Part shown: positions 1-5,159 of the stretch, piece by piece | Position numbering within the stretch: position 1 is the stretch's first letter | Layout of the letters: each line of letters begins with the position of its first letter | Assembly: GCA_017540825.1 (NCBI GenBank) | Contig: JAFYAH010000015.1 | Span: forward strand, 1 to 40,224 | Length of the DNA: 40,224 nt | Source of the DNA: Candidatus Methanomethylophilaceae archaeon | Lineage (GTDB): Archaea; Thermoplasmatota; Thermoplasmata; Methanomassiliicoccales; Methanomethylophilaceae | Reading direction: 5' to 3' | The notes under the pieces: generated by a model | What the model saw: the letters and a program-made list of their open reading frames with translations, nothing else | Databases searched by the model: none | Told to the model about the DNA's origin: nothing | Program-made: the position numbers and the translations under genes

Positions 1-1604
1 AACATGCTATCGTCAGGCAGCGGAAGCCCGAAGTGGCCGTATATGTCCCTGCATTTCTTCGGGACCTCGTTGATCATCCACCCGCTCCTGAGGTTCGTGG
101 CCGTAAGGGATCTGAGCCTCTTGAGTATCATCGGTATCCCGAGAGCCCTCATCTCCTCGTCCATGGACTGGCGCATGAGCATGCGCATGGATAGGCCCAC
201 GAACTGGACGAAGAGAAGCCCCTTGGCCGCATCCAGGCTGTGGACGTACCTGATCCCGCCGTCCATGTCGTCCTTCAGAGACTCGTACTCCTTCTCGTCC
301 TCGTCCCGCTTCCTGTACAGCTCCAGTATGTCCGCGGGGCTGCAGTCCATGTTGGTCACGAACACGACCTTGCCGAAGTTCCTCATGGCGAACGTCATCG
401 AGTTCCTCCTCCTGGTCAGGAGGACCTTGCCGTCCTCGCCCTCGGAGACGTCGAAATGCCTCTCCAGGCCCTCCAGCCTGCCCCTGAATATGTCCGATAT
501 CGTCACGGCCTCGCCCTTCCACTCAGTCTCGGAGGCTATGCGCTCCGCCTCCGCGATCCTGGAGATGAACGCGTCCCTCTCCTCCTTCTCGCGGTCCGTG
601 TTGAGGAACGTCAGGACGCGCAGTTCCTTGACGGCGCTGCCGTCCGGCAGCGTCGCCGCGGTGCCGTAGGGCCACTCGACCCTCCGGTCGGAGAACGACT
701 CCGTGCGTTCATGGAAAGGGAACATGTTGACCGGGTTCTCCAGGTCCTCCTTGGCGGCGGTTATCCAATCCTTGTGGAGGTCCGTGCCTCCCCTCACGGG
801 GATCAGGTACCTGCAGTCGCCCTGGGACTCGAGGAACGCGATGTTGGACTCGCTGTAGAAGCCGCGGTCCATGACCAGCGCCACGGTACTCGCCCCCATC
901 GATCTGAGCCTGGATATCATGCCCTTCACGGTGCTGACGTCGGAGATGCTCCCGGGGAACAGCTTCATCATCACGGGGAGGCCCGTCTTCAGGGAGTGCA
1001 CCAGGCCCAGGTTGACCTGCGGCAGGCCTGTCTTGCGGGTCCCCCTCCCGTTCTCCAGCATATCCATCTGCTCCGACGAGGACTGCAGGACGCTCGTGTC
1101 GAACACGGCGACGTCGTCGCTGTCCATGCACGACTCGTAGAACAGGTTGCGCGCCGAGTCGTTGGAGCCTATATCGTCAAGCAGCTCGGACAGCCTCTGG
1201 GACTCGTACGCGCCTTCTCCCAGCAGCATCTCCAGGGCCGTTGTGTTCATCGTGTCTCTGACGGAGCGCAGGCTGTCTGGGTCGGTAATTCTCAGTATGC
1301 CCAGAGAGAGGATGCGGGACGCATCCTCCTCGCCGAAGAACGAGGCGAGCCTCCTCCTGAGGCCGATGGTCTCGGACAGCTTGAACAGCAGATCGTAAGG
1401 CCCTACCGTGACGGACCTGTAGGGCCTTTCGTCTTTGGCACAGACAGGACGTCTGCGGCTCTCGATGATGATGCCGTTTTCGTCGCACGGGCCGATGTAT
1501 TCTTTTTTCTGCCTTCCCTGCTTCTTGACAGGGTCCCAGTACGGGGTCAGTTTGTACAGGTAGTGCTTGTTGCCCCGCTTTTCGACACGGGTTTTTGTAG
1601 GCAT
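1..1604 (-). CDS. IS1634/IS4-type DDE transposase, partial (C-terminus beyond window)
   Basis: The frame reads from ATG 1604 for 534 codons to the window edge with no stop, so most of a 550-600 residue transposase is present. It should catalyse cut-and-paste transposition with an RNase-H-fold DDE active site. Visible support: an acidic strand VFDTSVL, the second-Asp motif MDRGFYSE, and near the C-terminus a segment starting YRKRDEDEKEY in which Y, R, E and K have the spacing Y-(2)-R-(3)-E-(6)-K, the signature of the IS4 superfamily. The N-terminus (KRGNKHYLYKLTPYWD) is the usual short beta-rich start of IS1634 proteins and resembles the partial protein at 40123. A TATA-like box at 1622-1633 lies about 24 bases before the ATG, which suggests a leaderless message. 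The family call is firm; intactness cannot be judged because the end is missing. Confidence 0.9.
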   Translation of the reverse strand, partial: MPTKTRVEKRGNKHYLYKLTPYWDPVKKQGRQKKEYIGPCDENGIIIESRRRPVCAKDERPYRSVTVGPYDLLFKLSETIGLRRRLASFFGEEDASRILSLGILRITDPDSLRSVRDTMNTTALEMLLGEGAYESQRLSELLDDIGSNDSARNLFYESCMDSDDVAVFDTSVLQSSSEQMDMLENGRGTRKTGLPQVNLGLVHSLKTGLPVMMKLFPGSISDVSTVKGMISRLRSMGASTVALVMDRGFYSESNIAFLESQGDCRYLIPVRGGTDLHKDWITAAKEDLENPVNMFPFHERTESFSDRRVEWPYGTAATLPDGSAVKELRVLTFLNTDREKEERDAFISRIAEAERIASETEWKGEAVTISDIFRGRLEGLERHFDVSEGEDGKVLLTRRRNSMTFAMRNFGKVVFVTNMDCSPADILELYRKRDEDEKEYESLKDDMDGGIRYVHSLDAAKGLLFVQFVGLSMRMLMRQSMDEEMRALGIPMILKRLRSLTATNLRSGWMINEVPKKCRDIYGHFGLPLPDDSM

Positions 1605-1622
1605 AGTACCATATGGTACTAT
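1603..1622. promoter_or_regulatory. 20-bp perfect palindrome over the transposase start codon
   Basis: ATAGTACCATATGGTACTAT is identical to its reverse complement and includes part of the transposase start codon (CAT at 1602-1604 on the plus strand). The minus-strand TATA-like box (1622-1633) directly adjoins it, so the palindrome fills the space between TATA box and start. Inference: an operator for transposase autorepression, or part of the element's end. A third half-site lies at 1681-1688. Confidence 0.6.
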
Positions 1623-2175
1623 TAATATAAATAATCTTCTTGGCACAGCCAGTTGTCCAAATAGATGTCAGAAGTCAAGGATAGTACCAATCGATTCCGG
1701 GAGTTAGGGAACCTCTTCTATGACAGCAAGACGGGGAGTGTCGCGTCTGCCCTGCAGCGAGGAAAGACAACGCCGCATACGCCTTGCCAGTCGTTCAAGA
1801 AGACCCCACTTGGACAGGCTTCTGAGGAAGCGCACCATCACCTTCGAAACGCCTTCCGGAATCTTCTCCCGCCTGTTCTTCCTGACTCTCACCATCGACC
1901 ATAAAGTCATGCCGCGCGACGATGCCAATCGCTTAACCACATCCGGAGGAAGAGCTCATCCCAATTTTTCTCTAGATTAGAAAATGCACCACAACAATCA
2001 TTTCGAAAACCCCTAGTCGATTATGCCGGACGAGTTCACCGGGCAGGTCATGCATGCTTGACCCCTTAAGAATCCAACTAAGAAACCCTGAGACTTCGAT
2101 CGAAGGCATTCAGACGAACGTTGCAGCGACATGACCAAACAGCATTTACCAGAAAATCATAATACTAACAATATA

Positions 2176-2317: not shown

Positions 2318-3163
2318 ATGCACGGTATTTCTGGCGACATCAAAACTGTTGGAGTGATAGGATCAGGAACCATGGGCGTCCAGATCGCGGAATGCATGGC
2401 TGAACATGGATACCAGGTTATTCTGAAAACGCGCAATCTGGCGCGCAAAGATGCCATCTTGGCAAAAATGAACAAACATCTCTTCAAAAGGGGCCCAGAA
2501 TCCGCTAGCGAAATATTGTCCCGCATAGACATTTGCTCCGCAGCAACTGATCTGAAGGGATGCGACCTGATCGTGGAATCGGTCGTAGAAGATTACGAGG
2601 CCAAATCCGCCACGTTCCAAGAACTGAGGGATGTCATAGGGGAGGATACCCTGGTCGCGACCAACACATCCGCGCTGTCGGTCACGAGGCTCTCCGAATC
2701 GTTCAAGGGCCTGATGGGGCTGCATTTCTTCAACCCGATACATCGTATGAAGCTCGTTGAGATCGTCACTACCACGTCCTCGTCGCAGAGCTCGATCGAG
2801 ATGCTGAAGAAGCTGGTCGTCTCCTTGGACAAGACTCCCATCGTAGTCATCGACTCGCCCGGATTCCTGGTGAACAAGCTGCTGCTGCCCCAGATAAACA
2901 ACGCTATAAAGATGAACGAGGCGGGAGTTGCCACCAAGGAGGAGATAGACCAGGCGGTGAAGCTCGGCCTCAACCATTCCATGGGCCCCTTCGAGCTTGC
3001 AGACTTCATCGGGCTCGACGTCTGCTATTTCATCCTCAACGAGATGTATGAGGTCAGCGACGACCCCAACTACCGTCCCGCGTCCCAGCTGAAGAGCCTG
3101 GTCGACAAGGGACATCTGGGCTTCAAGACGGGAAGAGGATTCTACGAGTACCCGAGGGCGTAA
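2318..3163 (+). CDS. hbd: 3-hydroxyacyl-CoA (3-hydroxybutyryl-CoA) dehydrogenase
   Basis: A 281-residue protein, the normal length for the short 3-hydroxybutyryl-CoA dehydrogenases that interconvert acetoacetyl-CoA and 3-hydroxybutyryl-CoA. The Rossmann motif GSGTMG is at residues 15-20, and the catalytic region TNTSALSV...GLHFFNPIHRMKLVE has the expected His at 136 and Glu at 148. The C-terminal dimerisation domain is complete (GPFELADFIGLDV, then GFKTGRGFYEYP at the end). The residue after the second beta strand, usually Asp in NAD-dependent enzymes, is replaced in a Lys-Thr-Arg stretch (37-39), which may mean NADP(H) preference (inference). ATG 2318 has GAGGGA 7 bases upstream. No thiolase, crotonase or acyl-CoA dehydrogenase gene is near, so its pathway is unclear. 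It ends one base before the next gene. Confidence 0.92.
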   Translation: MHGISGDIKTVGVIGSGTMGVQIAECMAEHGYQVILKTRNLARKDAILAKMNKHLFKRGPESASEILSRIDICSAATDLKGCDLIVESVVEDYEAKSATFQELRDVIGEDTLVATNTSALSVTRLSESFKGLMGLHFFNPIHRMKLVEIVTTTSSSQSSIEMLKKLVVSLDKTPIVVIDSPGFLVNKLLLPQINNAIKMNEAGVATKEEIDQAVKLGLNHSMGPFELADFIGLDVCYFILNEMYEVSDDPNYRPASQLKSLVDKGHLGFKTGRGFYEYPRA

Positions 3164-3164
3164 G

Positions 3165-4157
3165 ATGGGGTCTAGAGATGTTTCGTTCGACGTCTATGGC
3201 GTCTGCACTACCAGGGACATATTCGGGCTGGTCCCATACAACAAATATCCTGTAAAGAAATACTTCCAGCTTTCCTTCCCTCCGGCGTTCGACCCTTCCA
3301 ACCTGTTCTCCATCAACCCTTTGACTCCAGACGACATAGATGCAAGCTCTGGATACGTCAGGAGGATCTGCGCTGCGGACCTGAACCGCACCGTGATATC
3401 CGACTTGGAGAATTCAGGAGCCAGTTGGATCATAATTGACGTCAGATCGGTCCCGAAAGGGCTGTGGGAGGTCAAATTCGGAGGGGAGACCCATTACTAT
3501 TCTCTTGGCAACTTCGTCAAGAAAGAGGCTATCTACAAGTCCATCGAAGCCAAGGGCCTTGCTGTGGAGTCCATCAGGAAGGTGAAGACGGAGGAGGTCC
3601 CCGACATGGACGCCTACGTCGACAAGTTCTGCGACTTCCTCAAGAGGCGCTACGACGGGAACATAATCCTGGTGGAGCTGAAGGAGGCCATGTGGCTCCT
3701 GGACAAGGGCGGGAACGTCGCATACAAGCCTAGCGCCGAGTCTGAGTACAACTGCAAGGTTATGGACGAGTACTTCATGAAGATCCTGAAGAAGCTCGAC
3801 TGCCACTACATCCGCACGCCTCCGAACATCGTCTACGATTCCTACAACCACTTCGGAGACGCTTATAGGGTGCACTACGTCCAAGAATGGTTCGACTACG
3901 CCAACAAATGCATAGACCTGATAACCTCCGGGAAGGAGGGCTACCAGAGAGAGATGGACATCCTCAGCATCGAGCTTACCAACAAGATGGACCTCATCAG
4001 GGGGAAGAACATCCTCTCCCGCACGAACGCCTGCAAGAGGTTCGACGCGATGTTCAAGAACAGGGCTTCCGACAGGCCTCGGATGGAGTCGTACATGTCC
4101 CAGCTTTCCGAGGCCTTCGAAGGCACCGAAGACGGGGTCTTCAAGGCGGAGATATAG
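3165..4157 (+). CDS. DUF6270-like domain protein (module up to the first TAG)
   Basis: The frame starts at ATG 3165, one base after hbd, and meets TAG at 4155-4157 after 330 residues. The N-terminus resembles DUF6270 proteins: a first strand with VCTTRDIF (residues 13-20), then KKYFQLSFPPAF, a YVRRICAADLNRTV segment, and ASWIIIDVRS ending a strand. This pattern recalls SGNH-like folds, and the family is often found with surface-polysaccharide genes; its biochemical role is unknown. Residues from about 240 to 330 are helical and charged. The same frame continues directly into Sel1-like repeats after the TAG, and repeat homology begins before the TAG (AEI-TAG-GRIGLAH against AEMMGLLGRAF of the next repeat). 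This is therefore probably the N-terminal part of a larger protein. DUF6270 assignment is from motif memory, not a search. Confidence 0.7.
   Translation: MGSRDVSFDVYGVCTTRDIFGLVPYNKYPVKKYFQLSFPPAFDPSNLFSINPLTPDDIDASSGYVRRICAADLNRTVISDLENSGASWIIIDVRSVPKGLWEVKFGGETHYYSLGNFVKKEAIYKSIEAKGLAVESIRKVKTEEVPDMDAYVDKFCDFLKRRYDGNIILVELKEAMWLLDKGGNVAYKPSAESEYNCKVMDEYFMKILKKLDCHYIRTPPNIVYDSYNHFGDAYRVHYVQEWFDYANKCIDLITSGKEGYQREMDILSIELTNKMDLIRGKNILSRTNACKRFDAMFKNRASDRPRMESYMSQLSEAFEGTEDGVFKAEI
4155..4157 (+). other. In-frame TAG codon 1 (candidate pyrrolysine codon)
   Basis: This TAG sits between GAG ATA and GGG CGC ATA, at the boundary between the DUF6270 module and the first Sel1-like repeat. The aligned position in other repeats is Met, Met, Tyr or Ile. 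No other gene in the window ends in TAG. Confidence 0.5.
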
Positions 4158-5159
4158 GGGCGCATAGGATTGGCGCACCGCGACAGGAAAGACGGGCTTG
4201 CGGATCTGGACGCCGCTGCGGAATGGATGAGGAAGGCTGCCGGATGCGGCCTTGCGTGGGCGCACAAGGAACTGTTCGACATCCTCTGGATGATGGGCAC
4301 GCCCGATTCCCTCGCGGAGATGGCCAGCAGGGCCTTCGCAAGGGCAGAGGCTGGCGATGCCGAGATGATGGGCCTGCTCGGAAGGGCTTTCAAAGAAGGA
4401 AAAGGCGTCGACCAGAGCCTCGAATCCGCCGAATCCTGGCTCAAGAAATCCGCCGACGGCAAATGCCTATGGGCCAAGGACGAGTACTTCGACCTGCTCT
4501 GGGAGATCGGCACCCCGGAGTCCCTAGCGAAGATGGCGGAATTCGGGAAATCCGAATACAAGAACAACCCGTCGATGATGGCCAGGATGGGCAGGGCGTA
4601 CTGTCGGGGCAGAGGCGTGGAGAAGGACATCCCTAAAGCTGTCCAGCTGCTGAGATCCTCGCTGGAGAAGGGGCCCCGCTGGGCCAAGGCCGAGTACATC
4701 GACGCCTTGATCCAGGTCGGCACGGCCGAATCGAAGAGGGACGCGTTCGATTACACCAGATCGATCCTCGAAGAGGACAGGGGGGACGCCTATGCCCGTA
4801 TCGCATGCATGTACCGGGACGGGATCGGAACCAGGAAGAGCCTCCGCCAGGCCTGCGACAACTTCAGAAAGGCTGCGGAGAAGAGGTTCCCAGCATCCAG
4901 AGCATAGCTTTTCGACGTCCTCTGGGACATCGGGACGAAAGAGGCGTACAAAGAGGCTTTCGACATGATCAACGCCGCCTCCAAGAACGGAACCGTGAAC
5001 GGAGAAGCGATAGGAAGGCTCGCAAGATGCTATCGCGACGGACGCGGAACCGTGAAAGACCTCGACATGGCCGCAAAGCTGATGAGGAGGGCCGCGAAGA
5101 AGGACGTTCCCTGGGCCGAGGCCGAGCTGGACGCGATCGAGTCTTCGAGAAAGGGATGA
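4158..5159 (+). CDS. Sel1-like repeat module (after the first TAG, contains a second TAG)
   Basis: This segment carries about five Sel1/TPR-like repeats with a period near 70 residues. Each has a GRAYxxGxGVxKDxxxA helix start, an AAxxG-type turn, then WAKxEYFDxLWxxGTPES. Such alpha-solenoids act as protein-protein scaffolds. There is no ATG or ribosome binding site at its beginning: the only early start is a TTG at 4170, which lies inside the first repeat and would truncate it. A TAG at 4905-4907 interrupts the fourth repeat at a column where other repeats have Glu (GAA or GAG). After it the frame continues with LFDVLWDIGTKEA and a final half-repeat to TGA 5157-5159. Read alone it is a broken gene; read with TAG as a sense codon it is the C-terminal half of the DUF6270 protein. 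Confidence 0.65.
4905..4907 (+). other. In-frame TAG codon 2 (candidate pyrrolysine codon)
   Basis: This TAG sits between GCA and CTT TTC GAC in the fourth Sel1-like repeat. The aligned residue is Glu in the first, second, third and fifth repeats. A single G-to-T change in GAG would produce it. Confidence 0.5.

Follow-up and report, generated by a model that had tools for sequence, protein, structure and literature searches.

The window, i.e., the whole stretch of 40,224 nucleotides analysed here, is part of a draft assembly. At the contig end lies a DDE transposase gene (DDE_Tnp_1; 6–1646, minus strand), near a plus-strand pair of genes. The first of the pair encodes a 3-hydroxyacyl-CoA dehydrogenase (2318–3163), and its stop codon lies one base before the ATG of the second, a DUF6270–Sel1 gene of 664 codons (3165–5159). 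A Shine–Dalgarno-like GAGGG (3154–3158, plus strand), recognised by reading the sequence, is found 6 bases 5′ of this ATG. Translation of 3165–5159 confirmed the single frame proposed in a preliminary description of this DNA. The only in-frame stops before the TGA at 5157–5159 are TAG codon 331 (4155–4157) and TAG codon 581 (4905–4907), and frameshifts, TAA and internal TGA are all absent from the 664 codons.

The encoded protein has two parts. Residues 10–238 (3192–3878) belong to the DUF6270 family, matching the whole Pfam profile (positions 1–222 of 222; E 4e-10, 40.3 bits against a cut-off of 27.5). Residues 324–663 (4134–5153) form a Sel1 alpha-solenoid, seen both as Pfam repeats above the cut-off (E 3e-23) and as the fold of a structure model. 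DUF6270 precedes the first TAG, and the solenoid runs unbroken across both. In the model (mean pLDDT 68), the Sel1 part is mostly at 75–92, DUF6270 is poorly modelled, and the best PDB matches are Sel1 proteins. Both TAG sites lie inside helices of the continuous solenoid, codon 331 at the start of the first Sel1 helix (residues 324–339) and codon 581 in helix 578–589. No mention of DUF6270 was found in the literature searched. Sel1 solenoids usually bind other proteins. Host-associated members of this order also carry many Sel1 proteins, for which a role in adhesion or interaction has been discussed (PMC7883539). On these two grounds, the likeliest guess is that the solenoid serves binding and DUF6270 is the working part.

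Coding character is maintained in all three TAG-bounded segments, with GC3 values of 0.79, 0.80 and 0.76 and in-frame coding scores of 0.31, 0.21 and 0.28 per codon, whereas the other frames score strongly negative. The sole early start 3′ of the first TAG is TTG 4170, which could open an ORF of 245 residues, as would suit two or three separate proteins with each segment restarting after a TAG. However, TTG 4170 shows no Shine–Dalgarno sequence at normal spacing, and a start there would truncate the first repeat, leaving the conserved GRIG 5′ of it. The earlier view that the first TAG is followed by no usable start thus holds, and it is hardly credible that the segments are made separately.

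Pyrrolysine machinery and genome-wide use of TAG

The host genome (2.37 Mb, 73 contigs) carries a tRNA with anticodon CUA (pylT, CTA), called tRNA-Pyl by ARAGORN. The genes for pylT, PylS, PylB, PylC and PylD are consecutive and form one cluster on a contig (C68) separate from that of the window, PylD scoring above its NCBIfam cut-off and the other pyl proteins being assigned from position and sequence reading. The complete pylTSBCD set, whose presence the preliminary description had proposed to verify, is therefore found in the same genome. Its two mtmB genes contain one in-frame TAG each, and its trimethylamine methyltransferase gene (mttB) also spans a TAG. PylD was likewise found in all seven relatives tested, five of them of the same genus, and the relatives found are consistent with the earlier assignment to Methanomassiliicoccales.

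The behaviour of TAG was compared with that of the other stops by applying a simple codon-pair gene finder to 933 kb of the genome, which yielded 627 genes ending in TGA (507), TAA (70) or TAG (50). Coding extends beyond the stop, well ahead of any ATG, at 9 of 50 TAG, 4 of 507 TGA and 0 of 70 TAA ends (Fisher p 3.6e-8); the TAG fraction is inflated because the sample takes in stretches picked for holding TAG genes, but the contrast between the codons is not due to the choice of sample alone. The three TGA cases examined proved to be pairs of unrelated neighbouring genes (e.g., Rad51 then a methyltransferase).

The role of TAG in this genome is mixed, since about 31 TAGs (about 5% of the genes in the sample) still resemble genuine terminators. 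It has reportedly been proposed, in 2025, that some archaea decode every TAG as pyrrolysine (Pyl). Complete reassignment of TAG to sense was considered for this genome and is not supported, given the terminator-like TAG ends and one further TAG that is followed by an unrelated thiG in the same frame. No excess of back-up stops was seen behind TAG-ended genes (median distance 21 codons, compared with 26 for TGA and 16 for TAA). A mixed role has also been reported elsewhere, the use of TAG as a stop being 4–5% in Methanosarcina and lower, at 1.6%, in Ca. M. alvus (PMC4153887).

TAG codons in the DUF6270–Sel1 family

Three DUF6270–Sel1 genes were found in the host genome, on the window contig (C8), C49 and C18. 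Each has two internal TAGs, and the C18 gene (L037:5856–7601) has a third near its end; of its TAGs, one interrupts DUF6270, one a Sel1 repeat, and the last stands six codons ahead of the TGA. Members of the family in relatives carry zero to three TAGs. They also occur in tandem, as six genes in L042 (G029 C43), one of them with three in-frame TAGs, and as four genes in L047 (G026 C37). About ten of the internal TAGs in the family are independent, as judged by homology, and no clear case of an internal TAA or TGA was seen, the candidates being gene ends or weak matches. As one-step mutation of sense codons is expected to yield TAG in 45–55% of cases, we estimate the probability that ten of ten internal stops are TAG by chance at roughly 0.0003 to 0.003.

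This pattern bears on whether two nonsense mutations, both TAG by chance, have recently turned the window gene into a pseudogene; nonsense mutation was an option named in the preliminary description. An orthologue with the same two TAGs was not found: no close orthologue was detected among 31 same-genus genomes, in the genome contigs or in the viral contigs searched, and the closest full-length matches are about 35–37% identical. The gene may also be dispensable, because it is paired with a dehydrogenase that had no match in six same-genus genomes and because an IS transposase lies close by at the contig end; the dehydrogenase and the TAG gene may together be an acquired segment. In the comparison of the locus, the contigs of most relatives break just 5′ of the neighbouring transporter gene. 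Against decay, however, stand the absence of any other lesion in the 664 codons, the coding score maintained in all three segments, the TAG-only interruption of the other two DUF6270–Sel1 genes of this genome, and a related group that retains a TAG across four species. We regard a pseudogene as quite unlikely.

The related group just mentioned comprises the C49 gene of the host genome (L036:5262–7490) and L046:6784–9030, L043:6506–8722 and L050:5780–7996, two of these members being on the public MAG contigs SUSZ01000017.1 and JAEEJP010000010.1. These orthologues, from four species, conserve a TAG at one column, within ARYGL-A/C-TAG at the Sel1 tyrosine position. Amino-acid identity 3′ of the shared TAG is 36–76%, and dN is lower than dS on both sides of the TAG in all pairwise comparisons, a sign of purifying selection; the two closest sequences have dN and dS of 0.14 and 0.64 after the TAG and 0.24 and 0.68 before it. 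These data argue strongly that translation would pass this TAG, and accidental damage is unlikely when four species retain the codon in one position. The C49 gene has an extra TAG where the other members carry TAC or TTC.

The shared TAG alone is no proof of a need for Pyl at this site. Of the codon columns, about 10% are identical in all four genes, so that an invariant TAG is in keeping with an ordinary sense codon under constraint. A stronger view is that gut methanogens have recruited Pyl into DUF6270–Sel1 proteins as a residue with a selected function, e.g., interaction or cross-linking on the solenoid. It would have long been fixed at the tyrosine site of the sister group and gained several times in other members of the family, including the window gene. 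We consider such recruitment unlikely.

Probable pyrrolysine at the two window sites

In the window protein, homologous coding sequence lies on both sides of each TAG, and the alignment to paralogues with sense codons is free of gaps at both. At codon 331, KAEI-TAG-GRIG aligns with KAEI-E-GRIG and KAEI-G-GRIG, and the closest paralogues show E, D, A or G at this column, within a strongly conserved KAEI-x-GRIG. At codon 581, SRA-TAG-LFDVLW aligns with RN-D/E/K-LFDxLW, and the column ahead of LFDxLW is occupied by E, D, K, Q or T in relatives (E, D, K or Q in paralogues). The gap-free Sel1 alignment described earlier thus stands through both TAGs, but its comparison at codon 331 had used an internal repeat, not the closest paralogues with their E, D, A or G. 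The codons of several relatives at the two columns are GAG, AAG or CAG, each one base off TAG.

Since the TAG sites are variable, mostly charged helix positions in relatives, both pyrrolysines probably take the place of exposed polar residues at positions that tolerate the exchange, and are probably neither catalytic nor part of a length switch. Such a switch would make a 330-residue, DUF6270-only protein when pyrrolysine is scarce and the full-length form under an ample supply of methylamines. The first TAG does lie exactly at the border between DUF6270 and the Sel1 solenoid, and translation should terminate at TAG some of the time, given that about 5% of genes still rely on release factor at this codon. 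However, other members of the family have TAGs within DUF6270, in mid-solenoid or not at all, so the domain-border position is not conserved, and RNA structure 3′ of the window TAGs does not go beyond that of shuffled sequences (z-scores −1.8 to +0.8). With TAG positions that vary and no RNA structure signal, the supply-dependent length suggested earlier lacks support, and we hold it to be highly improbable.

As the best-supported account, we consider it likely that the window gene is intact, that Pyl-tRNA(CUA) reads both TAGs to give a 664-residue protein, and that the pyrrolysines are, probably, tolerated replacements of polar residues. The pylTSBCD genes would supply Pyl-tRNA(CUA) for decoding of codons 331 and 581; the product would consist of DUF6270 and a single unbroken Sel1 solenoid, and competing release would leave some shorter product. 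The two TAGs may each go back to one substitution, for instance from GAG, AAG or CAG, in a lineage that would decode TAG efficiently enough for a sense-to-TAG change to be nearly a missense change. The pyl genes, the TAG-specific continuation of coding, the TAG-only interruptions within the family and the four-species TAG support Pyl decoding well, one of the options of the preliminary description, and from these sequence data we infer actual insertion, its efficiency and its near-neutrality.

Known and predicted pyrrolysine proteins and further candidates

Like MtmB, MtbB and MttB, the window protein is encoded across TAG in a genome that decodes it. However, Pyl in the methyltransferases is catalytic and conserved, whereas the window sites vary among relatives and belong to a solenoid. 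Another case is Methanosarcina Thg1 (tRNA-His guanylyltransferase), a different protein from an ordinary gene, in which Pyl reportedly arose by neutral evolution (title cited as reference 79 of PMC4153887).

For Ca. M. alvus, 16 extra Pyl proteins were predicted in 2014, including a 389-residue Sel1 protein (AGI86303.1; PMC4153887), and for ISO4-H5, 46 amber-containing genes were predicted in 2016 (PMC5011839). The window gene resembles these predictions in its in-frame TAGs flanked by homology, the pyl cassette and low use of TAG as a stop, and differs in its two TAGs, its N-terminal DUF6270 and its species. The earlier suggestion of a new pyrrolysine protein is thus well supported as to Pyl decoding, but weaker as to novelty of kind. 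In the passages of PMC4153887 and PMC5011839 consulted here, a TAG at one homologous site across species is not reported outside the methyltransferases. What is new here is the density of TAG in DUF6270–Sel1 genes and the four-species TAG of the sister group, and the window gene itself joins an already predicted kind.

The sister-group TAG is accordingly the more interesting lead, offering a test of whether selection can keep pyrrolysine in a protein without a known link to methylamines. Amber decoding in gut methanogens would reach beyond methylamine metabolism, and standard annotation would split such TAG-spanning proteins. Elsewhere in the host genome, another Sel1 protein gene (L038:4881–6533, C53) continues for 88 coding codons beyond a TAG. 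Two large uncharacterised genes, L122:4006–7230 (C38) and L039:16423–19362 (minus strand, C50), have a frame that runs through one or two TAGs and are further candidates for Pyl proteins.
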